In this document: piece after piece, positions 13,653-48,310 of the stretch | Layout: the number at the start of each line of letters is the position of its first letter | How positions within the stretch are numbered: the stretch's first letter is position 1 | Virus record (IMG/VR): IMGVR_UViG_3300036800_000220 | Location: 1-49,964 of that record | Length of the DNA: 49,964 nucleotides | Source of the DNA: a virus | Strand: one strand, 5' to 3' | Notes under the pieces: model-generated | What the model saw: the letters and a program-made list of their open reading frames with translations, nothing else | The model's database searches: none | Told to the model about the DNA's origin: nothing | Position numbers and translations under genes: made by a program

Positions 13653-14684
13653 TTAGAGGCCGACCTTGCTCGCCGCGTTGCGGGTGAAGAACTCGGCTTC
13701 GCGGACGTAGCCCATGACGGTCTCGGTCTTCTTGTGCCGGGACTGCCGCATGATCAGCTGCAGGTCCGCGCCGCCAGCGGCCGCGCTGGTGATGAAGCCC
13801 GCGCGTAGGCTGTGCGCACCGAACAGCCGGGGATCCAGCTTCGTATGCGCGACGCCGCGCTTAACGATTTCGCTGGCCGATTTGCCGGTCAGCGCCTCTG
13901 CGCCGAGGCGGCCGTGACGATCGACGCCACGGAAGATGGGGCCGCAAGAGATCTGCGATATGTCGAGCCAGTCGCGAAGCGCGGCGACGGGGCAGAGCGC
14001 CGTCTTGCCGTGCGGAATCGCGACCTGGTGGCCGCGGCCCTCCTGGTCGGTCTTTGACCGGCCCAGATCGATAAGCAGGCCGCCGGCGACGAAACTGCAG
14101 CGGCAGGCTGCGACATCGTCGGCTGGCCAGTCGAGCCAGAGCGCCACCAGCTCCGATCGGCGGAGAGCGCCCGAAAACCCCAGGAGGAAGAGCGCCCGAT
14201 CCCGCGACCCAGCCAGTGTCGGCGGCAGGCGCGCGACCACTTTGCGCAGCTCCGCGGTGACCAAAGCCCTCTTCTTACGAGGAGGTCGGCCGCGCGTGCG
14301 CCGAATCCCTGACCAGACCTCATCAAGCCTCGAGCTCGCCGGCGGCGGTAGGTTTTCGCGACGGTGAACCTCGGCGATCGCGGCGATCGTCTGGAACATC
14401 GTCGAGACCGACAGCCGCGGCGCGACGTCGGTCATATAGAGGATCAGGACGTTCGGATCGGTGGGCGCCTCGCCCGCAAATCCGTGCGCGACGCACCAGC
14501 TGCTGAACTGTCGCCACCGTGAATTGTAGGCTCGCCGCGTCGCCGAGGCCTTTGAGGCGTCGGCGTAGTCGGCCGCCGCCGCGGCGAGCCGGCGAACCTC
14601 CGCCTCGAGGGCAGCCGGCGCGAGGTCGCCCGCCGGCCCGACCAGTATGAGATCGGAGCCGGGCATCCATGTCTCCGGCGCCAT
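13653..14684 (-). CDS. Tyrosine recombinase/integrase
   Basis: A 343-residue site-specific recombinase of the phage integrase/XerC type. It has an N-terminal SAM-like core-binding domain (about 35-130, with RRAYNSRWRQFSSWC) and a catalytic domain with the expected residues: Arg175 in SGALRRSEL, Lys211 in GRSKTDQEG, His291 and Arg294 in GAHSLRAGF, His317 in RQSRHKK, and nucleophile Tyr326 in VMGYVRE. All are present, so it should be active. No excisionase was recognised nearby. A large serine recombinase is also present (28076-29719), so the job of each enzyme is open. Confidence 0.9.
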   Translation of the reverse strand: MAPETWMPGSDLILVGPAGDLAPAALEAEVRRLAAAAADYADASKASATRRAYNSRWRQFSSWCVAHGFAGEAPTDPNVLILYMTDVAPRLSVSTMFQTIAAIAEVHRRENLPPPASSRLDEVWSGIRRTRGRPPRKKRALVTAELRKVVARLPPTLAGSRDRALFLLGFSGALRRSELVALWLDWPADDVAACRCSFVAGGLLIDLGRSKTDQEGRGHQVAIPHGKTALCPVAALRDWLDISQISCGPIFRGVDRHGRLGAEALTGKSASEIVKRGVAHTKLDPRLFGAHSLRAGFITSAAAGGADLQLIMRQSRHKKTETVMGYVREAEFFTRNAASKVGL

Positions 14685-20966: not shown

Positions 20967-21206
20967 ATGGGAATCCTGTTTCCGGCCATCCCGCCGGATG
21001 AGTCGCCGGAGATGCTCGCAGACGACGAGCTCGACCTGGCGATCGACGCCAGTGCGCGTGTCGTCGACCAGTTCGTCACGCGGCTCGAGACGCTTCTGGC
21101 GGAGAGCGATCGGCGCCGCAGCCGCGTCCAGGTCGCCCTCACCGCCGTCGCCTTCGCCTATCTGGCCGATCGCCAGCTGCTGCGCGGCGCGGAGCTCGCC
21201 CGATGA
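20967..21206 (+). CDS. First gene of rightward operon, hypothetical
   Basis: A 79-residue acidic, helical protein (DDELDLAIDASARVVDQFVT, then RLETLLAESDRRR) with a good ribosome site (GAAGGGG). No family recognised. It overlaps the next start by 4 bp and begins the chain of coupled genes controlled by O3/O4. Confidence 0.6.
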   Translation: MGILFPAIPPDESPEMLADDELDLAIDASARVVDQFVTRLETLLAESDRRRSRVQVALTAVAFAYLADRQLLRGAELAR

Positions 21207-21421
21207 CCCGGCTGCCATATCGCCGCCTGCAGGCGCTCGCCGCTCACCCGACCGCAGGCGTCGAGGTGCTGGCGCCTGTCAACGACAACGAGGCGGTCCG
21301 CGCCGCGGGCCTTCGGATGATCGCCGGTTTGCGCCGCCCAGGGCGCTGGCTTCTGGAGTTTGTCATGCTCGGCGCGTTCCTGGGCGAAATCCTCTTCTGC
21401 GTCGTGATGTCATGCCGCTGA
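21203..21421 (+). CDS. Small protein with C-terminal membrane segment
   Basis: A 72-residue protein with a basic, soluble N-terminal two-thirds (LPYRRLQALAAHPTAGVEVL) and a hydrophobic C-terminus (WLLEFVMLGAFLGEILFCVV) that could span the membrane. ATG at 21203 overlaps the previous stop. Confidence 0.5.
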   Translation: MTRLPYRRLQALAAHPTAGVEVLAPVNDNEAVRAAGLRMIAGLRRPGRWLLEFVMLGAFLGEILFCVVMSCR

Positions 21422-21501
21422 GCCGCGTGCTTCCGGGCCTCGCCCTCCTCGCCCTGGCCGCCATTTTCGGCTGGGCGATCGCCCAATGGGCTGCCGTCTG
21501 A
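21412..21501 (+). CDS. 29-residue membrane peptide
   Basis: A very short frame from the ATG at 21412, inside the last codons of the upstream gene. It encodes 29 residues, mostly one hydrophobic helix (VLPGLALLALAAIFGWAIAQ). Its stop overlaps the next start (TGATG). The precise overlaps at both ends are the main support. Confidence 0.4.
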   Translation: MPLSRVLPGLALLALAAIFGWAIAQWAAV

Positions 21502-21821
21502 TGGCGGCCGACGTTCGCGTCCTCGATCCCACCGTCGCGGAGATGGCGCTGGCGCGCCGGCTCCTCGCCGAGATGGGGGTAGCGGACGGCGCCCTGGCGC
21601 TCCCGCGTCCCGAGGCGCTCCTCGCGCTCGTAGAAGCGGCCCGGTTCGGCGCGCGCCTGCAGCGGCTCAAGTCCCTTCGCTGCGAGGGCGCCTCGATCCG
21701 CTTCTGCCAGGTGTGCGGATGCACCAACACCGCCGCCTGCGTCGTCGACGGCGTGCCCTGCCACTGGGAGCGTCCGGAGATCTGCAGCACCTGCGCGCCC
21801 TACCTCGAGGGCGGCCGGTGA
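21501..21821 (+). CDS. Cysteine-cluster phage protein
   Basis: A 106-residue protein starting at the ATG at 21501. The C-terminal third carries Cys69, 72, 74, 80, 87, 95 and 98 in the order CQVCGC, C, GVPCHWE, ICSTC, a recurrent phage motif that probably binds zinc. The N-terminal part is helical. Function is unknown; such modules also occur fused to other early phage proteins. Confidence 0.65.
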   Translation: MAADVRVLDPTVAEMALARRLLAEMGVADGALALPRPEALLALVEAARFGARLQRLKSLRCEGASIRFCQVCGCTNTAACVVDGVPCHWERPEICSTCAPYLEGGR

Positions 21822-22048
21822 AGGCGGATCGGCTGGATGGCGGCCTGATCGAGGCGCTGCGCGAGATCCGGGCCGCGGAGCCTCTCGGCCTGGCGCTCTA
21901 CTTCGGGGGCACATTCTTCTGCAGCGGATCGCGCCTGATCAACGCCCTCACCTGGCGCGAGCTCGCCGGCCGCGGCCTGGTCGACGTGGTCGACGCGCGG
22001 ATCCGCATCACGGTGCGTGGGATCGAATTCCTCCAGGGGATCCCGTGA
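21818..22048 (+). CDS. Small hypothetical protein
   Basis: A 76-residue protein from the GTG at 21818, overlapping the previous stop. Sequence (GGLIEALREIRAAEPLGLAL, then LTWRELAGRGLVDVVDARIR and ITVRGIEFLQG) resembles a small winged-helix: a helix pair and a beta hairpin ending in a short helix. It may bind DNA. No exact family recognised. Confidence 0.5.
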   Translation: MKADRLDGGLIEALREIRAAEPLGLALYFGGTFFCSGSRLINALTWRELAGRGLVDVVDARIRITVRGIEFLQGIP

Positions 22049-22389
22049 TCCGCTCCGTGGGCCATCTTCTCTTGCTGATGTTCGCCGGCGAGACGGTCGC
22101 GGTCGACCTCTCCGGCGACCATCCGATCTGGCGCATGGTGCGCACCGGCGAGGCGATCGGCTTCGATCCCACCCGCGCGCCCTGGCCGGCGACGGCCGCG
22201 ATCCGGATCGTCCAGCGCGACCTCTTCGGCGCGCCTTATCAGCTCGGCGTCACCCCCCCCCGCAAAGGGACGGCGCGCCGTGAACCCACAACCCCACGCG
22301 GGTCCACGAGGACGTCAAGGTTCAACCCTCCCTGGCGTGGGAGGCTCGACACCTCCCGCCTGCTCCAACTTCGCGAGGTGAGCGCATGA
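22045..22389 (+). CDS. Hypothetical protein
   Basis: A 114-residue frame from the GTG at 22045. The first 70 residues look folded (VGHLLLLMFAGETVAVDLSG, then HPIWRMVRTGEAIGFDP and AAIRIVQRDLFGAPY). The remainder is Arg/Pro/Ser-rich and may be disordered. No family recognised. Coupled at both ends by 4-bp overlaps. Confidence 0.45.
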   Translation: MIRSVGHLLLLMFAGETVAVDLSGDHPIWRMVRTGEAIGFDPTRAPWPATAAIRIVQRDLFGAPYQLGVTPPRKGTARREPTTPRGSTRTSRFNPPWRGRLDTSRLLQLREVSA

Positions 22390-22682
22390 CGACGGAGATT
22401 GCCGGTTTTCGCCGGCTTACAGGCACTCAGAAGCGGGCGCTTTTGAACCTCGCTCATACAGATCGAGCGCTCCCGTTCTTCGCTGGGTGGTCAGTTGGCG
22501 GCCTGATCCTGAACGCGCGGACTGTTGACGCGCTCGTCGTGCGGGGTCTGGCGAAGACCGAAGCGCAGAATGTCCCGGGCCGCCGCGGCATCCTGCGGAC
22601 CGCCGGCGGAATGGCGCAGGTCGTCGTGATCACGAGCGCGGGGCGCGAGGCCGCCAATCGGATCGCGGAGCAGTGCGCATGA
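22386..22682 (+). CDS. Hypothetical protein, winged-helix-like
   Basis: A 98-residue protein (GTQKRALLNLAHTDRALPFF, then LNARTVDALVVRGLAKTEAQ and VVVITSAGREAANRI). The pattern helix, 'TVDALVVRGLA', beta hairpin, 'ITSAGREAA' is that of a small winged-helix domain similar to MarR-like wings. DNA binding is plausible, not proven. Confidence 0.5.
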   Translation: MTTEIAGFRRLTGTQKRALLNLAHTDRALPFFAGWSVGGLILNARTVDALVVRGLAKTEAQNVPGRRGILRTAGGMAQVVVITSAGREAANRIAEQCA

Positions 22683-23071
22683 GCGCCAACGCCGGCCGCC
22701 CGGATCTCGACCTCCTCCTCCGCGCACAGCACATCCCTGTCGGCGAGCCGATCTTCTACCTTCGCGCCCGAGATCCCGGCGCCGAAACCGGCGTCCGCGC
22801 CTGGGCCGCCAGGGCGTTCGAGCTGGGTGCGCCGGCGGCCGTCATCGAGCAGGGCCTGCAGCAGGCCGACGCCATCGCGAGCTGGCCCGAAAAGCGGCTG
22901 CCCGACGTCCACCACCTCAAGCGCCACGAGATCCTGCAGCTCGAATACCAGCTGCGCCGGCGCGCCTGGCGCGCACGGGAGGACGGGGGGCCGACCGAGA
23001 CCGCGATCCTGCTCGCCGAGCAGCGTGGCTACGCCCGCGCCCTGAGCGAGCTCCGCAGGGGAGGGATTTGA
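22679..23071 (+). CDS. Hypothetical helical protein
   Basis: A 130-residue protein from the ATG at 22679. It has LRAQHIPVGEPIFYLRARDP early, then a long helical part (FELGAPAAVIEQGLQQADAI, WPEKRLPDVHHLKRHEILQL) and a C-terminal coiled stretch. Nothing identifies a family. Overlaps neighbours by 1 to 4 bp. Confidence 0.5.
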   Translation: MSANAGRPDLDLLLRAQHIPVGEPIFYLRARDPGAETGVRAWAARAFELGAPAAVIEQGLQQADAIASWPEKRLPDVHHLKRHEILQLEYQLRRRAWRAREDGGPTETAILLAEQRGYARALSELRRGGI

Positions 23072-23382
23072 TGAGCCAGGGCGCGTCAGGAGATTTCGTC
23101 GAGTACGTCGGGCCGCCGATGCTGGCGCGTTATAACGGCCCCAATTTCGAAGTGGTGCCTGCTCCCGCGCCGGGGTTCCTTGCGCGCGTCGATGGGGAAG
23201 CGGGGCTCTGCCACTGCGGCCAGTCGAGCCTTCTGATCATCCACCTGGAAGGGTGGGACCCGGCCTGGTGTGTGCGCCTTTGGCAGCCCGTCCTTCGACC
23301 AAAGGCCGAGGTGCTGGCTTCGCTCCTCGCGCCCGCGCCCACCGAGCCGGCTGAACGCGAGCGCGTGAGGGAGCCGGCGTGA
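23071..23382 (+). CDS. Hypothetical protein preceding HerA-like ATPase
   Basis: A 103-residue protein (FVEYVGPPMLARYNGPNFEV, then CHCGQSSLLIIHLEGWDPAW and CVRLWQPVLRP). The paired CxC and later Cys could bind metal. It is translationally coupled to the ATPase gene (GTGA overlap). Function unknown. Confidence 0.5.
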   Translation: MSQGASGDFVEYVGPPMLARYNGPNFEVVPAPAPGFLARVDGEAGLCHCGQSSLLIIHLEGWDPAWCVRLWQPVLRPKAEVLASLLAPAPTEPAERERVREPA

Positions 23383-24596
23383 ACGCGCTTTCCCGCATCG
23401 ATGCGGCCGAGGCCTCGAGCGTCTCGGTGCGTCTGCCGATTGGCGAGCGCGCCGGCGGCGCGCCACTCGAGATCGACCTCGACAAGCTGATGGTCGGTCG
23501 GTGCCTGATCCAGGGCAGCTCCGGCGCCGGCAAGAGCCAGACGATACGCCGGGTCCTCGAGGAGGCCTTCGAGTACCTGACGGTGATGATCGTCGATCCG
23601 GAGGGCGAGTTCGAGAACCTCGCCCGCCACGTCGGCGCGACCACCATCATCGGCGCGGAGCTCGCCGCGGACGGCCTCACGGCCGCCGCCGCGCGCGGTC
23701 GCCATCACCGCCTGCCGCTGCATCTCGACCTCTCCGACCTCGCGCCGGACGAGCGCATCTCCAAGGCGGCCGCCTTCTTCGCCGGCCTCCTGGGAAGTCC
23801 CAGGGAGGGCTGGGCGAACACAGTCCTGGTGGCGATAGACGAGGCGCACCTGCTCGCGCCGCACCTGGCCGCGACCTCGCGCGACGCCGAAGTGCGCCGC
23901 CTTGGCGTCAGCACGCTGACCGAGCTCTGCGCGCGCGGGCGCAAGCGTGGAATCTCCGTTCTCGTGGCGACCCAGAGGCTTGCCAAGCTGGCCAGCTCCG
24001 TCACCAGCGAACTGCACAATGCGCTGATCGGACTGAACGTGTTCGACCGCGACGTCGCGCGGGCGGCCGACATCCTCGGGTTTTCTGGCGACCAGGCGCA
24101 GCGCCTTCGCCTGCTCGAGCCGGGCGAATTCTTCGCGTTCGGGCCGGCGCTCTCCCGGGTTCCGGTCAAGGCGCGGATCGGCGCCACGGTGACGATGCCG
24201 GCGGGAGCAGCGCCGCAGATCCAAGCGCCGGCTGACATTTCTCCCGAGCAGGCGCGGGCGCTCCTGGCGCTGGACGCCCTGCAGGAGACGGGGGCTGTCC
24301 CTCGCAACCTGACGGGGCGCGGCGCCGCTCGGGCGATCGACGGCTTTCTTCTGGATCCGGCGGCCGGAGCCGCCATCCGGATCATCGAGGCGCTGCGCCC
24401 GATCGCCCCGAACGCGACCACCTCGGCCGAGCTCGCACGGGCGCTGTCGCTGAACCTCGAGCAGGTCGACCAGGGGCTGGATCTTCTCCTGCAGGCCGGC
24501 GCGGTCGACGCGATGCCCCGTGGCGATGGCCGCATCGCCCGCCTCGCGGCGCGTCTGCGGCTGCGCTCGGTCGACGCGAACGTCGTGAGCCTGTGA
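23379..24596 (+). CDS. HerA/FtsK-fold hexameric ATPase
   Basis: A 405-residue P-loop ATPase of the HerA (DUF87-type) branch. Walker A is GSSGAGKS at 46-53, followed by the HerA-typical MIVDPEGEFENL at 70-81. Walker B is VLVAIDEAHLL at 149-159, then ARGRKRGISVLVATQRLAKL at 185-204, where the family has its arginine-finger and sensor region. The C-terminal 150 residues look like two winged-helix-type segments. HerA proteins are ring-shaped DNA translocases; archaeal forms work with NurA nuclease and some bacterial forms act in antiphage defence. No nuclease partner is adjacent. It is coupled to the seven-repeat DNA-binding gene, its likely partner. Confidence 0.8.
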   Translation: MNALSRIDAAEASSVSVRLPIGERAGGAPLEIDLDKLMVGRCLIQGSSGAGKSQTIRRVLEEAFEYLTVMIVDPEGEFENLARHVGATTIIGAELAADGLTAAAARGRHHRLPLHLDLSDLAPDERISKAAAFFAGLLGSPREGWANTVLVAIDEAHLLAPHLAATSRDAEVRRLGVSTLTELCARGRKRGISVLVATQRLAKLASSVTSELHNALIGLNVFDRDVARAADILGFSGDQAQRLRLLEPGEFFAFGPALSRVPVKARIGATVTMPAGAAPQIQAPADISPEQARALLALDALQETGAVPRNLTGRGAARAIDGFLLDPAAGAAIRIIEALRPIAPNATTSAELARALSLNLEQVDQGLDLLLQAGAVDAMPRGDGRIARLAARLRLRSVDANVVSL

Positions 24597-25858
24597 TGGA
24601 CGCCGCAGACCTCGAGCCCCAGATCGTCGAACTCGTCGCCGTTCCCGCGCCGGTGCTAGCCGGCGCGGTCCGTGAGCTGGCCTTTCGCGCCAACGCGTGG
24701 CTTCCGCAGGAAGACGCCCAGCTGCGCGAGCTCTTCGCGGCCGACGCGCCGATCGGCGAGATGGCCGAAGCGATCGGGCGCCGGTTCCAGGCGGTGCGCC
24801 AGAGAATCTGCACGCTCGGCCTGCGCCGCAACAGCCAGCGTCCGTGGTCCGAGCTCGAGGACGCGGAGGTCCTGCGTCGCTATGGGCCTGAGACCGCCGC
24901 AGCCATCGCCCAGGATCTGGGGCGCGGCGTGCCTGCGATCTACAATCGCGCGCGCCTGCTTGGGATGGCGGAGGCCATCGCTCCGGACTGGACCGCCTGG
25001 GAGGATGCCCAGCTGCGCGCCGGCTACGCCCAGGGCGCGCCGGTCGCACAGATCGCGGTGATCATCGGGCGCTCATACTCGGGGGCAAACAGCCGCGCGT
25101 ACGAGCTGCGCCTGCGTCACCTCTATCAGCCGGTCGGCTGGTCGGCGGAGGAGCTCACGCGCGCCCTGGCTCTCGCCCACGAGGGACACCGTTACCTCGA
25201 GGTGATCGAGCTGCTGGTCGCGGAGGGGTTTCCGCGGCGCACGAAGCTGGGGCTCGGCCCGATGCTGAAGCGCCTTGGTTATGGCCGTGGCTGGGGGCGT
25301 CGCTGGGCTGCGGAGGAAGACGATCTGCTCCGCCGCGCCTATTCCCGTGGGGACAGCCTTCGCGAGCTCGGCCGCAGCCTCAACCGGCCGCCAGGGTCCC
25401 TGCGCTGGCGTGCAGAGGCGCTGGAGCTCCGCGGCAGCCACCCCAACCACGACGGGTTCCGTCAGGGCCCGTGCTGGACGCCCAAGGAGGATGCGCGTCT
25501 CCGGGAGGTCTACGGCAAGATAAAGACTTCAGAGCTCCCTGCACTCTTCGGGAGGCCGAAAGGCGGCATCTTCCAGCGCGCCTTCCACCTGGGGATCCGC
25601 CACGGCTACTGGCGTCCGTACGCGGAAGACGAGGTCCGAGCGATCCGGATCGCGTGGAAGCGCGGGATCGGGGTGACCGACCTGGCGGTCGCGCTCGGGC
25701 GCAACCCGCAGGCGATCTACAAGCAGCTCGACCGGCTGAATCTCTCGTTCTCCGATCCCGCGCGGCCCGTGGCTTCCTCCCGGGCCCGGCGCGCCAAGCG
25801 CGCGGCGCCTCTTTCCCTATCCCAGATCCTGCAGCTCGAGGAGGCTGAACCTGCATGA
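24596..25858 (+). CDS. Seven-repeat Myb/GcrA-like DNA-binding protein
   Basis: A 420-residue protein built from seven HTH-like repeats of about 43 residues, at roughly 35-78, 84-124, 132-174, 182-228 (divergent), 237-279, 294-336 and 339-383. Each has a leading Trp, an acidic pair, an LR..Y helix, an (I/L)A..(I/L)GR turn and a recognition-type helix ending LGL/LRL, as in 'WTAWEDAQLRAGY...IAVIIGRS...SRAYELRL'. The pattern resembles SANT/Myb domains and the N-terminal DNA-binding domain of Caulobacter GcrA. Seven tandem copies would read a long or repeated site. The ATG at 24596 overlaps the HerA-like stop, suggesting one complex. Confidence 0.7.
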   Translation: MDAADLEPQIVELVAVPAPVLAGAVRELAFRANAWLPQEDAQLRELFAADAPIGEMAEAIGRRFQAVRQRICTLGLRRNSQRPWSELEDAEVLRRYGPETAAAIAQDLGRGVPAIYNRARLLGMAEAIAPDWTAWEDAQLRAGYAQGAPVAQIAVIIGRSYSGANSRAYELRLRHLYQPVGWSAEELTRALALAHEGHRYLEVIELLVAEGFPRRTKLGLGPMLKRLGYGRGWGRRWAAEEDDLLRRAYSRGDSLRELGRSLNRPPGSLRWRAEALELRGSHPNHDGFRQGPCWTPKEDARLREVYGKIKTSELPALFGRPKGGIFQRAFHLGIRHGYWRPYAEDEVRAIRIAWKRGIGVTDLAVALGRNPQAIYKQLDRLNLSFSDPARPVASSRARRAKRAAPLSLSQILQLEEAEPA

Positions 25859-26109
25859 CCCTTCGCCTGCAGATCGAACCGACCGACCGGATCGTCGAAA
25901 TCGCGGTCGCCGGCGGCGGATCCGTCCCTGCCCGCGCATGGCAGGGGGTCATGGAGGACGGGACGAACGTCGTCCTCCTCGTCACCCGTGTCGCTGTGTC
26001 CAAGGACGCGCCGGCCGCGGCCCAGGCCCGGTTTGCCGAAGCGCTGACCGAGGTCGCGCCGGCGCGTCCGGAGGTCATTCGCGCCTTCGACCTGAGGCTG
26101 ATCCTGTGA
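25855..26109 (+). CDS. Hypothetical protein
   Basis: An 84-residue protein of beta then helical character (LRLQIEPTDRIVEIAVAGGG, then DGTNVVLLVTRVAVSKDAPA and FAEALTEVAPARPEVI). Coupled by 4 bp to the seven-repeat gene and to the next gene. No family recognised. Confidence 0.5.
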   Translation: MTLRLQIEPTDRIVEIAVAGGGSVPARAWQGVMEDGTNVVLLVTRVAVSKDAPAAAQARFAEALTEVAPARPEVIRAFDLRLIL

Positions 26110-26366
26110 GCGCCGCCGAGACTGCGGCGGCCGAGCCGGACCGCGCGCGGATCCTTCACCGCCTCGAGCACGCCTTTGCGCCGTCAGGCGTCTGCGGCTT
26201 CTACCACCCCGATGATGCGGCGCTCCTGCGCCAGATGTCCAAGGAGGGCCTCGTCGAGTGCTGGTGGGGCGAGGGCCACGACCGCAGCGTCATGCTCGCT
26301 AAGCTTCGGCCCGAGTCACGCGCCGCCGGCGTGGCGTCTCCCTCTCGACCAGGAGGCGCGGCGTGA
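26106..26366 (+). CDS. Hypothetical protein
   Basis: An 86-residue protein from the GTG at 26106. RILHRLEHAFAPSGVCGFYH followed by PDDAALLRQMSKEGLVECWW reads as a small winged-helix-like domain, with a short disordered tail. It could be another small DNA-binding protein. No family recognised. Confidence 0.45.
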   Translation: MSAAETAAAEPDRARILHRLEHAFAPSGVCGFYHPDDAALLRQMSKEGLVECWWGEGHDRSVMLAKLRPESRAAGVASPSRPGGAA

Positions 26367-26734
26367 AGGCCTGGCGTGTCAAGTTTCGCCGCTTCAGCTT
26401 GGCGTCTATCGTCGAAGCGCCGACGCGGTCTGCAGCTCGGATGTCTTCTGCCCAGAACGCCATAGACGCCGGTCATTACGTGCGTGGCGGAGTGGGCAAT
26501 GCGCTCCGCGACTGCGAGTACGTGCGGAGAGCGCCAGCGCACGATCGGCCCGATCCGCCGCCGACGCCGGAGCCAGACTACCGCGCTGAGATGCAGCTGC
26601 CTGGGGGCAAGACCTGCGGCGACTGCGTCCACTGCGAGCGCTGCTGCGCCATCTTCGGCCATGCGCCCACCGATACGAGCTGCGACTGGTGGCCGAGCCG
26701 CTATCGTGAAGGCGCTGTTGGAAGCGTCGCGTGA
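26363..26734 (+). CDS. Phage protein with C-terminal cysteine cluster
   Basis: A 123-residue protein. The C-terminus (GKTCGDCVHCERCCAIFG, then DTSCDWWPSRY) matches a common phage motif, C-x2-C-x2-C-x2-C-C followed by CD-W-P-x-R(Y/F), likely a zinc or other metal site. The N-terminal half is basic and includes NAIDAGHYVRGGVGNALRDC. Function unknown; the motif is widespread in phage early regions. Confidence 0.6.
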   Translation: MKAWRVKFRRFSLASIVEAPTRSAARMSSAQNAIDAGHYVRGGVGNALRDCEYVRRAPAHDRPDPPPTPEPDYRAEMQLPGGKTCGDCVHCERCCAIFGHAPTDTSCDWWPSRYREGAVGSVA

Positions 26735-27033
26735 TGCCCTGCACCCAAGTTCGACTCCCCGGCGGCCAGGTTGCCATCGTCTGCGGACCACGGAGCCGAC
26801 CCAAGCGGTGCGCCTGCGGAAGCGGCCGGCCGGCGGATCGGCTGTGCGACTGGAAGTTGCCCGAGGGAGGCACATGCGACGCGCCGTTGTGCTCGGCCTG
26901 CACCCACGTCCCGGCGCCGAACAGGCCTGCCGGCAGAAATGGCGCGCCCTTGCGCTGGTCATCAAGGCGAAGCTGGAAGCGGTCAGCGCCGGCATCACCA
27001 CCGTCGAGGACGAGTTCCTCGCCCAGACCATGA
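26734..27033 (+). CDS. Zinc-cluster protein overlapping the next gene
   Basis: A 99-residue frame from the ATG at 26734. Its first 55 residues carry CGPRSRPKRCACGSG, LCDWKLPEGGTCDAP and LCSACTH, the pattern of a common small phage protein that usually ends with a further C-x-x-H. Here the last 45 residues read as low-complexity Arg/Ser/Pro because the next gene runs in another frame from 26874. Either the genes truly overlap by 160 bp or the 3' part has shifted frame. Confidence 0.5.
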   Translation: MPCTQVRLPGGQVAIVCGPRSRPKRCACGSGRPADRLCDWKLPEGGTCDAPLCSACTHVPAPNRPAGRNGAPLRWSSRRSWKRSAPASPPSRTSSSPRP

Positions 27034-27134
27034 TGGGCGACGGACGCACCGTGGGCGAGGTCGTGCAGCCCCAGCTCGAGGAGCACCTGCGTGTCGGGGG
27101 ACCGGTCACGCTCAGGCTGGAGGGGCCGCGGTGA
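26874..27134 (+). CDS. Conserved phage protein (VIKAKLEAV type)
   Basis: An 86-residue protein with a strong ribosome site (GAGGGAGG before the ATG). The core (WRALALVIKAKLEAVSAGIT, then VEDEFLAQTMMGDGRTVGE) matches a protein often seen in proteobacterial phages and prophages, with no known function. Its start lies within the preceding zinc-cluster frame. Confidence 0.7.
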   Translation: MRRAVVLGLHPRPGAEQACRQKWRALALVIKAKLEAVSAGITTVEDEFLAQTMMGDGRTVGEVVQPQLEEHLRVGGPVTLRLEGPR

Positions 27135-27406
27135 AGGAACGCGAGATCCGCGTGCGCGCGAGTCAGGTCGCGCAGATAGCGGCAGGGATCTGCGTCAACG
27201 TGCTGAATCTCGGTCTCGACGGCGACGAGGATCAGGCGAACATGGTCGCCGCGATCGACGACCTTCTCGACGAGGCCGCCGAGCTGGTCGAGCGGTTGCA
27301 CGAACTCGCCCCGTCCACGTCCGCGCTTCGGGAAACCTTGGTCGCGGCGGCCGCCGAGTGGGACTCGGCGAAGGCGCGCGGCGAGAGGAGCCGCCCGCGT
27401 GAGTGA
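27131..27406 (+). CDS. Hypothetical helical protein
   Basis: A 91-residue protein from the GTG at 27131. It is almost wholly helical and acidic (MVAAIDDLLDEAAELVERLH) with a short basic end, and may form a coiled-coil dimer. No family recognised. Overlaps neighbours by 4 and 8 bp. Confidence 0.5.
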   Translation: MKEREIRVRASQVAQIAAGICVNVLNLGLDGDEDQANMVAAIDDLLDEAAELVERLHELAPSTSALRETLVAAAAEWDSAKARGERSRPRE

Positions 27407-27641
27407 GCGACCCAGCTATCCCCGAATCCCGTGCTCGATCCCGTTCTGCCGGCGCGGCACGACGATCTATGAGCCGGGCTACGAGATCATCTGCGGCAAG
27501 CATTGGCGGCTGGCGGACCGCGCGCTCAGGCGCCTGCATTCCCGGGCCGTGCGGCTCGGCCGAAACAGGCTCGCGCACCTTCTCTGGGCGAGGCGCATCA
27601 AGCCGCAGATCATCGAGCGGGCCGCCGGGGCGAGCGCATGA
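27399..27641 (+). CDS. Conserved small phage protein (IICGKHWRL type)
   Basis: An 80-residue basic protein with IPCSIPFCRRGTT, IICGKHWRLADRALRRLHSR and LLWARRIKPQIIERAAG. This arrangement, a C-x-x-x-C pair plus CGKHWR followed by Arg-rich helices, recurs in alphaproteobacterial phages. The Cys/His residues could form one zinc site. Function unknown. Confidence 0.65.
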   Translation: MSERPSYPRIPCSIPFCRRGTTIYEPGYEIICGKHWRLADRALRRLHSRAVRLGRNRLAHLLWARRIKPQIIERAAGASA

Positions 27642-28075: not shown

Positions 28076-29719
28076 ATGCGAGTCGCGCTCTACGCCCGCT
28101 ATTCGACCGACCTGCAGTCGGAGACCTCAGCCGACGACCAGCTGGCGGCTCTGCGCAAGGTGGTCGCCGCCCGGGGCTGGACCGAGGTCGGGACCTACGT
28201 CGACGAGGGGATAAGCGGGGCCGCGCTCGCAACACGGCCAGGCGTGCGCGAACTGATGCGCGCCGCGAGCGCCGGCGGCGTGGATGTCGTGATGACCGAG
28301 GCGCTCGATCGCCTCAGCCGCGGCCAGGCGGACACCGCCCGCCTTTTCGAGCTGCTGACCTGGGCCGGCGTTCGTCTCGAGACGCTGGGATCCGGCGTGG
28401 TCACCAAGCTCCACGTCGGGCTCGAGGGGACCATGAACAGCCTCTTCCTCGACGAGCTGGCCAAGAAGACGCGCCGCGGCCTGATCGGGCGGGTGGAGGC
28501 GGGTTTTTCCGGCGGCGGCCGCTGCTACGGCTACGACATCGCCGCCAAAGGCGTCCTGGCGGTCAATCCGGACCAGGCCGGCGTCATCGCGCGGATCTTC
28601 CGGCAGTACGCGGCAGGCGCGTCGGCCTGCGCGATCGCGCAGGCCCTCAACGCTGAGGGCGTCGCGCCGCCTCGAGGCGAGCGCTGGCGCGCCAGCACCA
28701 TCATGGGGGACCGCCGGGCCCAGGATGGGATCCTCTGGCAAGAGCTCTACATCGGCGTGCGGATCTTCAACCGCCGGCGATTCCGCAAGCATCCGGAGAC
28801 CGGCCGGCGCAGCTCGGTGCTCAACCCGGCCGCCGAGTGGATCCGCAAACCCGCGTCGGAGCTGCGGATCCTCGACGATGAGCTGTGGGAAGCCGCCCGG
28901 GCGCGCGAGAGGGCCATCACCAGCTCGCCTCGGCCGACATCGCCCAGGCCCAAGCGCCTGCTCTCCGGACTGCTCCGCTGCAGCCTGTGCGGCGGTCAGA
29001 TGTGGCTGCAGGGGCCAAGGTACATCTGCTCGAGCCGGCGCGATGGCGCAGGCTGCGCCAACGGCAAGGCGATCGCCGCGCGGACCGTCGAAACCCGGGT
29101 CCTCGAGGGGATCCGCGCGCGGCTGCTGGCGCCCGAGGTGATCGCGGCGGCCGTGCGCGACTATCGCGCCGACATGGAGGCCGCGCGGTCGGCCGCCGTG
29201 AGCGAGCGAGCGCCGATCGAGCGCGAGCTCGCGGAGATCCAGCGCCGGATCGACCGGGCGGCCGAGAGCTACGATCGGGGGCTGTTCGAGATCGACGAGC
29301 TCGAGATCCGGCTGCGGCCCTTACGGGCGAGGCAGGCTGAGCTGCGCGCGCGCCTGGCGCTGGTGGACGAGCCGCAGCCCGTCCGGCTGCATCCCAAGGC
29401 GGCGGACTACTATGCGGCCCTGGCGGCGGACCTCGTCCAGTTCCTCGAGGGCGAGGACGCCGGCGAGGCGCGGGATCTGATCCGCAGCGCGATCGAGGCC
29501 GTGGACTTCATCCCACTCGAGGGAATGGGGAAGTTCGACCTGCAGGTGCATGGTCAGCTGGCGGCCCTGCTCGGGATTTCCGAGCGGGGCCGCCAGTCTG
29601 ACGGGGTAGTGGGTGCGGGGACCCGATTTGGGCAGACCGTCACATCTGCGCCTGGCGCGCTGCGCGTTTCGTTCTTCGTTCGATCGGACCGTTTTCAGCG
29701 ACAGGTCAGGGCCCGGTGA
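28076..29719 (+). CDS. Large serine recombinase/integrase
   Basis: A 547-residue serine integrase. The resolvase-type catalytic domain (1-150) has YARYSTDLQ with nucleophile Ser10, the DEGISG block and EALDRLSRG. It is followed by the recombinase domain (about 165-275, GLIGRVEAGFSGGGRCYGYD), a zinc-ribbon domain (LRCSLCGGQM, then CSSRRDGAGC) and a coiled-coil C-terminal part (ERELAEIQRRIDRAAESYDR). ATG at 28076 with GAGGTG upstream. It is the last gene of the rightward operon and converges on the methylase with a 14-bp overlap. A second, tyrosine-type recombinase is present at 13653-14684. Confidence 0.93.
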   Translation: MRVALYARYSTDLQSETSADDQLAALRKVVAARGWTEVGTYVDEGISGAALATRPGVRELMRAASAGGVDVVMTEALDRLSRGQADTARLFELLTWAGVRLETLGSGVVTKLHVGLEGTMNSLFLDELAKKTRRGLIGRVEAGFSGGGRCYGYDIAAKGVLAVNPDQAGVIARIFRQYAAGASACAIAQALNAEGVAPPRGERWRASTIMGDRRAQDGILWQELYIGVRIFNRRRFRKHPETGRRSSVLNPAAEWIRKPASELRILDDELWEAARARERAITSSPRPTSPRPKRLLSGLLRCSLCGGQMWLQGPRYICSSRRDGAGCANGKAIAARTVETRVLEGIRARLLAPEVIAAAVRDYRADMEAARSAAVSERAPIERELAEIQRRIDRAAESYDRGLFEIDELEIRLRPLRARQAELRARLALVDEPQPVRLHPKAADYYAALAADLVQFLEGEDAGEARDLIRSAIEAVDFIPLEGMGKFDLQVHGQLAALLGISERGRQSDGVVGAGTRFGQTVTSAPGALRVSFFVRSDRFQRQVRAR

Positions 29720-30530
29720 TGATCAGCTCTCGCGCGGCCGTCGAGCCCGCGGCTGCGAGCCCATAGCTCAGCCGGGCTTCCTGGATATCGAAGCCGGCGA
29801 ACAGCTCGCGGATCTCCGCCGCGTCGTTGATCGAGACGATGAAGCGGCCGCGGATCCGAGCGAGAGCATCGCGGAGATCCTGGAATTGGGGGCGATCGAA
29901 GAGACCGGGCCCATAATACGCCTCCGAGCCGAAATACGGGGGGTCGCAATAGAAAAGCGCGGTCGGCGCGTCGTAGCGGCGGATGAACTCGGCGAAGGGA
30001 AGCTGCTCGATCGTCACGCGCGCCAGTCGCGCGTGCACCGCCTCGAGCCGCGCCAGCAGCGCCCCGCGGTCGAAGGACCGCCCGTGGCCACCAGCCTTCG
30101 CCATGGCGAAGTTGCGCCCAATAGCCTTGCCGCCGAAGGCGCTCTTCTGCAGGCAGACGAACCTTGCAGCCCGTTCTATGTCCGTGAGGTGTGCCGGATC
30201 CAGCGCCGCCAGGCGCTCCCACTGGGCTCGGCCGTGGTGCGCGAACCGCAGCTCCGCGGCCAAGGCGTCCGGATGACGCTGCGCGATCCGCCAGAGGTTA
30301 GCGACCTCGCCGGCGAGGTCGTTGATGGCCTCGACCCGCGCAGGCCGGGGCCGGCGAAGGAAGACGCCGCCGGCACCCACAAACGGCTCCGCGTAGAGCT
30401 CGTGCGGCGTCGCCTCGATCAGGTCGACCAGACGTCGCGCCAGGTGCTTCTTGCCCCCGACGTAGGGAATGATTGGCCGCACGGCGGCGCTCCCCGCGGC
30501 GGCGGCCGCGAGGTCAGGTCTCGACACCAT
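29706..30530 (-). CDS. DNA adenine methylase, D12 (Dam) class
   Basis: A 274-residue N6-adenine methyltransferase. The SAM-binding start is IIPYVGGKKHLARRL at 20-34 with AEPFVGAGGVFL at 47-58, and the catalytic motif is DPPY at 197-200 (FYCDPPYFG). The D12-class order and length match Dam-like enzymes. No restriction partner is adjacent, so it is an orphan methylase that may mask phage sites from host enzymes or tune gene control. Start set at the ATG at 30530; upstream in-frame sequence is low complexity. Confidence 0.9.
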   Translation of the reverse strand: MVSRPDLAAAAAGSAAVRPIIPYVGGKKHLARRLVDLIEATPHELYAEPFVGAGGVFLRRPRPARVEAINDLAGEVANLWRIAQRHPDALAAELRFAHHGRAQWERLAALDPAHLTDIERAARFVCLQKSAFGGKAIGRNFAMAKAGGHGRSFDRGALLARLEAVHARLARVTIEQLPFAEFIRRYDAPTALFYCDPPYFGSEAYYGPGLFDRPQFQDLRDALARIRGRFIVSINDAAEIRELFAGFDIQEARLSYGLAAAGSTAARELIITGP

Positions 30531-45372: not shown

Positions 45373-46739
45373 CAGCTCGCCAGGACCTGCAGGACGCTTG
45401 GCATGAAGAGCGGGTTAGGCGGGTTCGCCTCGCCGGCCAGCTGGTCGGATCGCGTGGAGTCCCGATAGAGCCGCTGGGCGACGGCCAGCGCCGGCAGCGA
45501 TGCGCCCAGCGCGAAGGTCGCGACGCTCGGCAGGGCGGCGCCGCGCGCCGTGAGATCCTGGATCACCGCGGTGCGCAGCGCGATCAGCGCCGCATAGCTG
45601 GCGTCGTCTCCGGTGTCCCCGGCAATGGTGATCTGGGCGTCGAGCAGGCAGCAGACCCGCGTGCGGACCGCCGCCGCGTCGTTGTAGGACGTCGGCTGGT
45701 AGCTTTCCGCCGCTTCGGCGAGGGCGACCACCGCCAGCCGCTGGTGCAGCTGGTCGACCGCCTGGGTCACCGCGTCGGCGCCGCCGCTGGCGTAGGTCGC
45801 GAGCTGCTCCAGGAGCCGCAGGGCGTCCGCCGGGTTGGCGACCACCGCGGCGAGCGCGCCCAGGCACGCCTGGCCGGCGCCGGCCAGGTCGGTGGGCTCA
45901 GACCCGGGGAGGCCCAGGCTTGCGGCCATGCCGGTCTCGATACCGGCGCAGGCGCTGATCGCCGCCCGGTCCGAGGCCTGGGCCTGGACGAGCTGCTCGA
46001 TCGTCGTTCCCGCCGGCAGGATGATCGCCGGCGCCCCGCCAAGTCCGGCGTTCGCGCCGTTGAAAAAGCGCCCGTACTCGCCGGTCAGCTCCGAGCCGAG
46101 GTTCAGCAGGCTCGTCGCATCGCCGCCCAGCGAGACGATCTGGCCCGTCCAGGCCGTGACCGCCGCCACGATGGCGGTGATGGAGGCGCCGCCCAGCGGC
46201 AGCAGCGGCGTGATCAGCGAGGAGAAGCTCGAGGCTACAGCGCTTTTCGCCGCGGTCGCGGCCGACCGGACCGCCGAGCCGGTGCTCTGCAGATTGTTCG
46301 GAAAGACGGCGTTGCCGCCTTCCACGAACGAGAAGGAGATCTGCAGATAGCCGTCGACGTCGAGTTCCGAGGCCGGCTCGAAGCTGTCGCAGGCGACCTG
46401 CAGCGTCCCCAGGTAGGGATGGACGAGCGTGCCCAGGCCCTCGGTCTCGGCTGCGACGATCATCGCCGAGAGCTGATGAAAGACGTCGCCGCCGCCATAG
46501 ACCGCGCTGTTGGCGATCAGGAAGCCGGTGATCGCCAGGCGCCTCGCCTTGCGTCCCAGATCCTCGGGCCAGGGCACGTCCCGGTAGGGATACTCGTGGA
46601 CCGCCAGACGACGGCCGAACTTGGGGTTGTCGCCCGTGACTCCGAACGGAGCGCCGCGGAACGAGGCTTTCTGCAGGCCGACGGCCTGAAGCGGCTTGGC
46701 CGTGACGACGATCTCACCGGCCGTAGAGGTGTCGCTCAT
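45372..46739 (-). CDS. Mu gpN-like protein (DNA circularisation N-terminal domain)
   Basis: A 455-residue protein of the Mu gpN / DNA_circ_N family. The conserved block is KASFRGAPFGVTGDNPKFGR, then HEYPYRDVPWPEDLGRKARR and the LVHPYLGTLQVACDSFEPAS segment. Despite the family name, in Mu it is a tail/baseplate protein. A long alanine-rich helical C-terminal part follows residue 180. Confidence 0.88.
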   Translation of the reverse strand: MSDTSTAGEIVVTAKPLQAVGLQKASFRGAPFGVTGDNPKFGRRLAVHEYPYRDVPWPEDLGRKARRLAITGFLIANSAVYGGGDVFHQLSAMIVAAETEGLGTLVHPYLGTLQVACDSFEPASELDVDGYLQISFSFVEGGNAVFPNNLQSTGSAVRSAATAAKSAVASSFSSLITPLLPLGGASITAIVAAVTAWTGQIVSLGGDATSLLNLGSELTGEYGRFFNGANAGLGGAPAIILPAGTTIEQLVQAQASDRAAISACAGIETGMAASLGLPGSEPTDLAGAGQACLGALAAVVANPADALRLLEQLATYASGGADAVTQAVDQLHQRLAVVALAEAAESYQPTSYNDAAAVRTRVCCLLDAQITIAGDTGDDASYAALIALRTAVIQDLTARGAALPSVATFALGASLPALAVAQRLYRDSTRSDQLAGEANPPNPLFMPSVLQVLAS

Positions 46740-48310
46740 GCGCTACCGCCCGGCATGCTGTTTGCGACCCGCGCCGTGGTGGTGACCTTGGCGCTGTCGC
46801 TGCGCGCGGCGACCTGCAGGCCGGGCGCGTGGGTGATCTCGACGTGCACCAGGTGCTCGGCGGCGGCGCCGCGGCGCGACGCCTCGCCCTGGGCGTCCGC
46901 CGGGCTCTCGTAGAAGCGCGAGACCACCGCGCCGGCGTCGCCTGCGGCCGAGGTCGAGGCCAGGCGAGCGCCGGCGGCGCGTCGGGCGCCTTCGGTCAGC
47001 TCGTACTGCACGAAATCCAGCTGCTCGCGCATGGAGGCCATGCCCAGCGAATGACCGGCCCAGCGGGCGAACTCGGCCTGGCGGTCCGCGTGCCATTGGC
47101 CGATGCCCAGGGCCCGGCCGTGGTCGCCCACGGCATGAGGATCGAACCCGCTCTCGGCGCCGAGATTGGCGACGATCCCCGCCGCCTGAGCCTCGCTCCA
47201 GCCCTTGGACTTGAAGTAGTCCATCGCCTGGTGCGCGGCGGGGCTATCAACGCCACCTGCCGTGCGACGCCCGCCGCTGGCGCCCGCTGCAGATCCCGTG
47301 CTCGGTGCGCCAGCCGGGGCGCTCGCCGCCTGATGTTTGCCGCCGAGGAGGCCGGCGAGCCAGTTGGCGAAGTCGAACATCGCCTGGAAGACCGGAATAT
47401 CGACTTGCTCAGCCATCCGGTTCTGAAAGCCATGCCACGCGTCGTCCAGCTTGATGATCGACTCGTGTAGGCGCTTCTCCTCTGCAATCTGCCTTGCGCT
47501 CTTGATCGCGCCGGACTTTGAGGCTTCGTCGAGCTGCTCCTCGCGCTCGTCCTGTTTCTGTATCAGCCACGCGAGCGCGGAGCTCGCGCCGAACGTGCTG
47601 GCGATCTGCTCGCGCGCCTGAGCGTTCTGCCCCTGCATCGCGTTGCCGAGCTGGTTCATCGCGTCGGCGGTGTCGATGCTCCCGTTCTGGAGCCGATGTA
47701 CGTGGATCCCGAGCCGGCTGATGAGCGCCAGAGCATCTCGGCTCCCGCGCCCGGCCAGCGCGTCCTCGAGCGTCTTGCCGACGCCTTCGAACGCCTGGGT
47801 CATGCCTTCGGCGCTGACACCGGCGTGCTCGCCGGCGAGCTGGTGCTTCTGTAGAACCTCGACGTTCTGCCCGAGGATCGCAGCCTCGGCGGAGATTGCC
47901 GTGCCGAAATTCGCGTACTGCTCGGCGGCCTTTTTCCCGTTTTCGGCGGCCTTGGCGAGGGTCAGGGCAACCACCCCCACCGCCAAACCGACGGGTCCCG
48001 CCGCCGCGCCCAGGCCCGCGAACGCGGCGCCCGTCGTCTCGATCGCGCCGCCCGTGGCGGCCACGCCCTCCGCCGCGACGCCGACTTCGGCCACGCCGCC
48101 GGCCGCGACGCGCGAGTTGTCGCCCATGGCCCGGAAGCTGTTGATGAGGCCGCCGAAGGCCTCGCGCTTTTCGCCCAGCGCGCCCAGGCGCTTGTGCGCC
48201 TCCTCGAATGGCGTCCCCTTGGTCAGCTTGGCGAAGTTGCTCTCGATCTGCTTGACGACCGCCTCGGTGCGGTCCTTGGCGGTGATCTCGAGCTCAAACT
48301 TACGGGCCAT
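46736..48310 (-). CDS. Tape measure protein with tail lysozyme domain
   Basis: A 524-residue tape measure protein. The N-terminal part has coiled-coil and membrane-like segments (AAGPVGLAVGVVALTLAKAA). The C-terminal third carries a phage tail lysozyme-type domain: MDYFKSKGWSEAQAAGIVAN, GAESGFDPHAVGDHGRALGI and GQWHADRQAEFARWAGHSL, with the Glu of GAESGF as candidate catalytic residue. It would cut peptidoglycan during DNA entry. The length predicts a fairly short tail. Confidence 0.85.
   Translation of the reverse strand: MARKFELEITAKDRTEAVVKQIESNFAKLTKGTPFEEAHKRLGALGEKREAFGGLINSFRAMGDNSRVAAGGVAEVGVAAEGVAATGGAIETTGAAFAGLGAAAGPVGLAVGVVALTLAKAAENGKKAAEQYANFGTAISAEAAILGQNVEVLQKHQLAGEHAGVSAEGMTQAFEGVGKTLEDALAGRGSRDALALISRLGIHVHRLQNGSIDTADAMNQLGNAMQGQNAQAREQIASTFGASSALAWLIQKQDEREEQLDEASKSGAIKSARQIAEEKRLHESIIKLDDAWHGFQNRMAEQVDIPVFQAMFDFANWLAGLLGGKHQAASAPAGAPSTGSAAGASGGRRTAGGVDSPAAHQAMDYFKSKGWSEAQAAGIVANLGAESGFDPHAVGDHGRALGIGQWHADRQAEFARWAGHSLGMASMREQLDFVQYELTEGARRAAGARLASTSAAGDAGAVVSRFYESPADAQGEASRRGAAAEHLVHVEITHAPGLQVAARSDSAKVTTTARVANSMPGGSA

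Follow-up and report, generated by a model that had tools for sequence, protein, structure and literature searches.

ATPases of the HerA family are known mainly in association with nucleases or defence effectors, while FtsK, with its gamma domain and KOPS sites, and TraB of Streptomyces combine a hexamer-type pump of double-stranded DNA with a helix-turn-helix (HTH)-type sequence reader. The locus described here comprises a HerA-family ATPase gene followed by a gene for a protein with seven predicted HTH repeats, and it can be compared with both groups. It resembles HerA-NurA, HerA-SIR2 and HerA-DUF4297 in the RecA-type HerA fold, in the presence of a partner gene and in its mobile or defence settings, but its partner appears to be a multi-HTH reader instead of a nuclease or NAD hydrolase, and its HerA lacks the HAS barrel and has a modelled C-terminal winged helix. 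With FtsK and TraB it shares, by prediction, the combination of a pump and an HTH-type reader, the latter being here a separate seven-HTH protein. The HTH protein resembles D5-like phage proteins (phrog_323; D5 of phage T5) in its PHROG match, its several HTH units and its location among early phage genes; however, D5-like proteins have few units as opposed to seven, D5 of T5 adjoins a ligase and a DnaB-type helicase and not a HerA, and the direct comparison with T5 D5 yields a weak match (12-14 bits, E ~1e-6 in a single-sequence search). Cbp1 (2lvs) also has tandem HTH repeats that arose by duplication, but it is an archaeal protein with three HTHs that binds CRISPR repeats and lacks a partner ATPase. 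Among the hexameric ATPases of the HerA/FtsK family, TdtA of Thermus (PMC5365140) is involved in DNA transfer between cells; it differs in being a HAS-barrel HerA-type protein with a NurA neighbour, acting in DNA donation, for which an HTH-repeat partner is not described. Our literature search (open-access papers; titles and abstracts) returned no description of a pair of HerA and an HTH-repeat protein.

The window analysed (49,964 nt) is an entire IMG/VR virus record. According to the gene calls it is a temperate phage, apparently in circularly permuted order: both ends carry minus-strand genes, those on the left for capsid, portal and terminase, those on the right for the tape measure, a DNA-circularisation protein, the baseplate and a beta-helix fibre. 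The pair is located in an early operon upstream of a recombinase (Table 1); the phage has a terminase and, in an operon other than that of the pair, an O-like gene of its own. Genes were called with our own gene caller and the starts may be wrong by some codons; the HTH protein could begin with GTG at 24593 or ATG at 24596, overlapping the HerA stop codon by 4 nt or 1 nt, respectively.

Table 1. Features of the HerA-HTH pair and its surroundings in the window.
Feature	Coordinates	Strand	Evidence
Rightward early operon with the pair; small, overlapping genes	20967..27641	+	gene calls, gaps
Minimal HerA/FtsK-family ATPase, 405 aa, GTG start	23379..24596	+	Pfam, AF2, Foldseek, PADLOC
Walker A GSSGAGKS (aa 46-53)	23514..23537	+	invariant or near-invariant in 40 relatives
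Walker B LVAIDEAH (aa 150-157)	23826..23849	+	D154, E155 and H157 invariant in 40 relatives
RGRKRGISVLVATQR motif (aa 186-200)	23934..23978	+	RGRKRG and T198 invariant; Q199 and R200 near-invariant (40 relatives)
C-terminal winged helix (aa 329-389)	24363..24545	+	AF2 helices 329-339, 349-356, 360-373 and wing strands
Predicted seven-HTH-repeat DNA-binding protein, 421 aa, D5-like phrog_323	24593..25858	+	Pfam, PHROG, AF2
HTH repeat 1 (aa 36-76)	24698..24820	+	AF2 helices 38-49, 54-61, 65-74; leave-one-out 0/1000
HTH repeat 2 (aa 85-124)	24845..24964	+	AF2; leave-one-out 0/1000; lowest third-helix entropy of the seven
HTH repeat 3 (aa 133-174)	24989..25114	+	AF2; leave-one-out
HTH repeat 4, divergent (aa 183-229)	25139..25279	+	AF2 helices 185-196, 201-210, 218-227
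HTH repeat 5 (aa 238-279)	25304..25429	+	AF2; leave-one-out
HTH repeat 6 (aa 295-335)	25475..25597	+	AF2; leave-one-out
HTH repeat 7 (aa 343-383)	25619..25741	+	AF2; leave-one-out
Large serine recombinase, downstream of the operon	28076-29719	+	gene calls

The first gene of the pair had been called a HerA-like ATPase in the initial annotation, in good agreement with the Pfam DUF87/HerA match (E 4e-9, over its cutoff), the AF2 fold and the retained motifs. The ATPase is also matched by the HerA and mad8 profiles of PADLOC (best 2e-16) and weakly by Pfam FtsK_SpoIIIE (25.9 bits over 45 residues). In the AF2 model (pLDDT 88, from 40 sequences) a RecA core (residues 18-270) is followed by a linker and the winged helix, and the closest fold found by Foldseek in the PDB is that of Sulfolobus HerA (4d2i, E 2e-14), with the HerA-NurA, SIR2-HerA and DUF4297-HerA defence rings among the further matches. 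Only ~45 residues precede Walker A, modelled as two short strands, with no N-terminal HAS barrel. The winged helix, a feature missing from the initial annotation, is matched by Pfam HTH_20 with E 0.003, under its cutoff. Taken together, the core, Walker A, Walker B and the GRK..QR motif identify the protein as a HerA/DUF87 ATPase, which is predicted to form a hexameric ring translocating double-stranded DNA.

The seven HTH/Myb-like repeats previously proposed for the second protein do model as HTH folds: AF2 predicts 21 helices in seven triplets (residues 38-74, 87-122, 135-171, 185-227, 240-276, 297-332 and 345-381) plus one short additional helix at the end, and Pfam recognizes HTH_38 and Myb with scores over cutoff (E 6e-11 and 5e-6, respectively; Myb 26.9 bits against the gathering threshold of 24.4), in line with three-helix repeats of the Myb/SANT type. 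The individual units mostly have pLDDT of 80-95, whereas the pTM of the whole protein is low (0.35), as expected for a beads-on-a-string architecture; likewise, the lack of PDB matches below E 0.01 in a Foldseek search with the entire protein is expected for a flexible string. When each repeat was scored with a profile built from the remaining six and compared with 1000 shuffles, repeats 1, 2, 3, 5, 6 and 7 outscored all 1000, while repeat 4 went undetected by its profile and is supported solely by its helices in the AF2 model and by the family alignment. Two relationships that were absent from the initial annotation are the match to phrog_323, "transcriptional regulator, D5-like" (E 1e-41, in four stretches), and that to Cbp1 2lvs, the top PDB sequence match to the profile of the HTH family (E 8e-7). 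On the other hand, the suggested membership in the GcrA family was not upheld (20.8 bits against the Pfam cutoff of 26.9; GcrA PDB match E 0.06), which leaves the idea that the protein reads methylated sites without specific support.

We looked for relatives of the pair in viral contigs and in 84,980 species genomes, with HerA as the query, and sorted the loci into three tiers. Tier 1 HerAs are ~57-72% identical to that of the window and are followed by a protein with seven repeats (eight by score in some), while tier 2 HerAs are ~38-43% identical and are followed by a ~275-aa relative with two to three detectable repeats; the profile of the tier-2 partner matches the downstream gene at every tier-2 locus as well as the HTH protein of the window (2e-6). 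Among 56 non-redundant HerAs (collapsed at 95% identity), the HTH-repeat partner was called directly downstream in 51 and found by HMM in three more (L132, L135, L148); in L140 it is cut by the contig end and in L110 only its first part is present, followed by unrelated sequence, so that an HTH-repeat gene or its start lies downstream of 56/56. No partner was detected for a truncated HerA (L156). In plasmids, for which the HTH protein was searched independently, the two genes co-occur in 23 of 23 cases both ways. Seven of 301 Sphingomonadaceae genomes encode the HTH protein and six of these also encode a close HerA, adjacent by coordinates; all six genomes with a close HerA have the HTH protein, and the seventh HTH protein is truncated. 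HTH-repeat genes without HerA are represented by fragments in two extra plasmid records (CP000700 and CP030354) and by one intact gene of the tier-2 type on pCHQ1 (L256 3914-4744), near a cytosine methyltransferase. Pairwise distances of the two proteins are correlated (Mantel r 0.81, 31 loci, 0/5000 permutations). The hosts are mostly Sphingomonadaceae, Caulobacteraceae and Rhizobiales, and since many loci come from one family, there are fewer independent events than loci. The only constant genes among the relatives are HerA and the HTH protein, with variable other neighbours, and neither the operon in the window nor any constant third gene supplies NurA, SIR2 or DUF4297, just as the initial annotation had stated. 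Its view of the two genes as a unit is strengthened by their co-occurrence elsewhere, but its argument that overlapping start and stop codons indicate a fixed ratio of the products is not: the 4-nt overlap is real and occurs at 51 of 92 HerA-HTH junctions (with a 12-nt gap in 20), but it is found at nearly every gene junction between 21818 and 27406 in the window, and was therefore rejected as evidence of coupling and carries no weight. The coupling of the two genes is well supported by the comparison of loci, and because they recur as neighbours in phages and plasmids across many alphaproteobacteria, they very probably constitute one undescribed DNA-handling machine.

The association also occurs in cis. 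In a phage contig from a metagenome (L188 6710-8608) a single 632-aa ORF comprises the HerA core directly followed by five HTH repeats, and just before this ORF the contig encodes another HerA, which is of the distant type; no other HerA-HTH fusion or full-length relative of L188 was found in the viral contigs or phages searched. In the HerA tree the fusion clusters with tiers 1 and 2 (97/78), a position that is uncertain because of its long branch, and the sister group comprises chromosomal HerAs of Sphingomonads together with HerAs from phages (L185, L189 and L190). A separate chromosomal HerA-like ATPase of ~500 aa, present in ~174 of the 301 Sphingomonadaceae genomes (e.g. L250 3470-5017, L251 3326-5014), is the nearest cellular relative that we have seen. 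In the sister-lineage phages HerA is directly followed by a gene whose small product has a zinc motif of the CxCGxxxxHxxxC type (L185 7861-8352, L189 7807-8700, L190 7894-8370), which indicates that the partner slot of HerA can be filled differently. These small proteins, in which Pfam recognizes no HTH, are related (E 3e-5) to the product of a third gene located beyond the pair in L006 (10450-12687) and also present in L003 (8414-10708), a polydactyl protein of 745-764 aa with many HTH units and CxCGxxxxHxxxC-type zinc motifs between them; in the large L003 relative Pfam does recognize an HTH. The distant tier-3 HerAs have no downstream partner gene; that of L002 shows a visible tandem duplication at its C-terminus, with weak Pfam matches, which we read as a putative pair of HTHs. 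HerAs of this group thus appear to be accompanied by a DNA reader, either within the same protein or as a separate one, and the case for a sequence-reading motor rests mainly on this tendency.

The pair is not confined to phages, a fact that was not recognized in the initial annotation. In addition to prophages (the window, L003, L006, L010-L013 and L170), it is found on plasmids and as chromosomally integrated copies. In two of the prophages it directly precedes excisionase-like and integrase-like genes (L012) or lies just ahead of an integrase-like gene (L013). Full-length pairs are present on 23 Sphingomonadales plasmid records, and the cultured carriers include Sphingobium sp. SYK-6 and Sphingobium xenophagum C1. 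On p1 of Sphingomonas sp. NY01 the pair belongs to a co-oriented block between the par genes and MobF, which also encodes strawberry-notch, ParB, a metallopeptidase, SSB, a thermonuclease and others; this plasmid has its own RepA/RepC, ParA/ParG, MobF and coupling protein. Anti-defence genes are a known cargo of plasmid leading regions (PMC11541004). Plasmid annotations label the HerA only as "DUF87 domain-containing protein" or "type IV secretory system conjugative DNA transfer family protein" and its partner as "hypothetical protein", which makes the pair easy to miss.

We propose that the pair is a sequence-addressed translocase of double-stranded DNA that acts early in the establishment of the element, a reading to which we assign a probability of about 40%. 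The seven-HTH protein would bind an extended DNA address, HTH by HTH, and would then recruit and orient the ring of the HerA-family ATPase, which would use ATP to pump along double-stranded DNA, so that the pair would do in trans what FtsK does with its DNA-reading gamma domain. In both phages and plasmids it would act when incoming DNA is being established, removing host proteins or defence complexes bound there and so opening the DNA for replication and expression. The assembly of the ring, the address and the direction of pumping are parts of the model that we infer, and it is solely the gene neighbourhood that suggests a role in establishment. For the reader, Cbp1 offers a working model by analogy: its HTHs align 5' to 3' along the CRISPR repeat and the third one recruits a partner (PMC10883916). 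The address itself may vary from element to element, or its reading may be loose, since the third helices are mostly not more conserved than the remaining residues, repeat 2 being the exception. More doubtful is the generalization to a class of address-guided motors, in which the seven-HTH protein would read a long address (perhaps 25-50 bp) and deliver the HerA ring, as a two-gene module of phages, plasmids and integrated elements that controls or protects entering DNA and whose partner slot is refilled by different HTH-repeat proteins.

The carriers that we examined have their own genes for replication, partition, coupling or packaging, which makes these roles less likely for the pair. Initiation of replication, with the HTH protein at the origin and HerA melting it or loading a helicase, is an unlikely alternative: the HTH family is named for T5 D5, annotated in T5 as required for DNA replication, and some distant phage HerAs have a gene for a sliding-clamp-like protein, for a primase-like protein or for a helicase nearby, but the O-like gene of the window and RepA/RepC of p1 speak against it, and a repeat search of the window and five related loci revealed no iteron-like array. 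It is improbable that the pair serves as a motor for segregation or dimer resolution, in which the HTH protein would mark polar sites, as KOPS do for FtsK, and HerA would separate sister copies; the HerA/FtsK fold with a winged helix and the presence on many plasmids are in its favour, but p1 has ParA/ParG, an integrating phage hardly needs such a motor, and no repeated polar motif was seen in the window and the five relatives, where the repeat-based search for binding sites returned two-copy families or scattered low-identity matches only. Slimmer still are the chances of transcription control, with a D5-like regulator silencing or activating genes and HerA displacing either it or the polymerase: the phrog_323 match, the annotation of T5 D5 as needed for late transcription and shutoff, and the nature of Cbp1 as a chromatin-like transcription factor would agree with it, but the similarity to T5 D5 itself is weak and a plain regulator leaves the conserved ATPase partner unexplained. 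Least probable is a weapon of competition or defence, with the HTH protein recognizing rival DNA and HerA attacking it with a nuclease from elsewhere: HerA is a core component of defence systems, the ATPase matches PADLOC profiles and the pair is mobile, but the window has no adjacent nuclease, SIR2 or DUF4297, no third gene is constant and the HTH protein has zero PADLOC matches.

If the addressed translocase is correct, a conserved HerA partnered solely by a long sequence reader would reveal how a ring motor can be aimed at DNA in trans, and the pair would point to an unstudied step common to the establishment of phages and plasmids. The named cultured carriers make it directly testable.

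Several other genes deserve mention. On plasmids and integrated elements a set of HATPase, PAPS-reductase-like and Mom-like DNA-modification genes recurs downstream of the pair (L119 9459-14697, L247 16546-21697), although its presence is variable; the PAPS-reductase-like protein gives a weak SspD match. In the window, the phage has a tyrosine-integrase-like gene (13653-14666, minus strand) besides the serine recombinase (28076-29719, plus strand), and the latter adjoins a D12-class adenine DNA methyltransferase (29706-30530, minus strand; PF02086, E 4e-22). The tape-measure protein (46736-48310, minus strand) contains a tail lysozyme domain. Tle1-like phospholipases are best known as type VI secretion effectors; the catalytic domain of this family is encoded here by a phage gene (30695-31786, minus strand; PF09994, E 6e-51) whose neighbours are phage genes.
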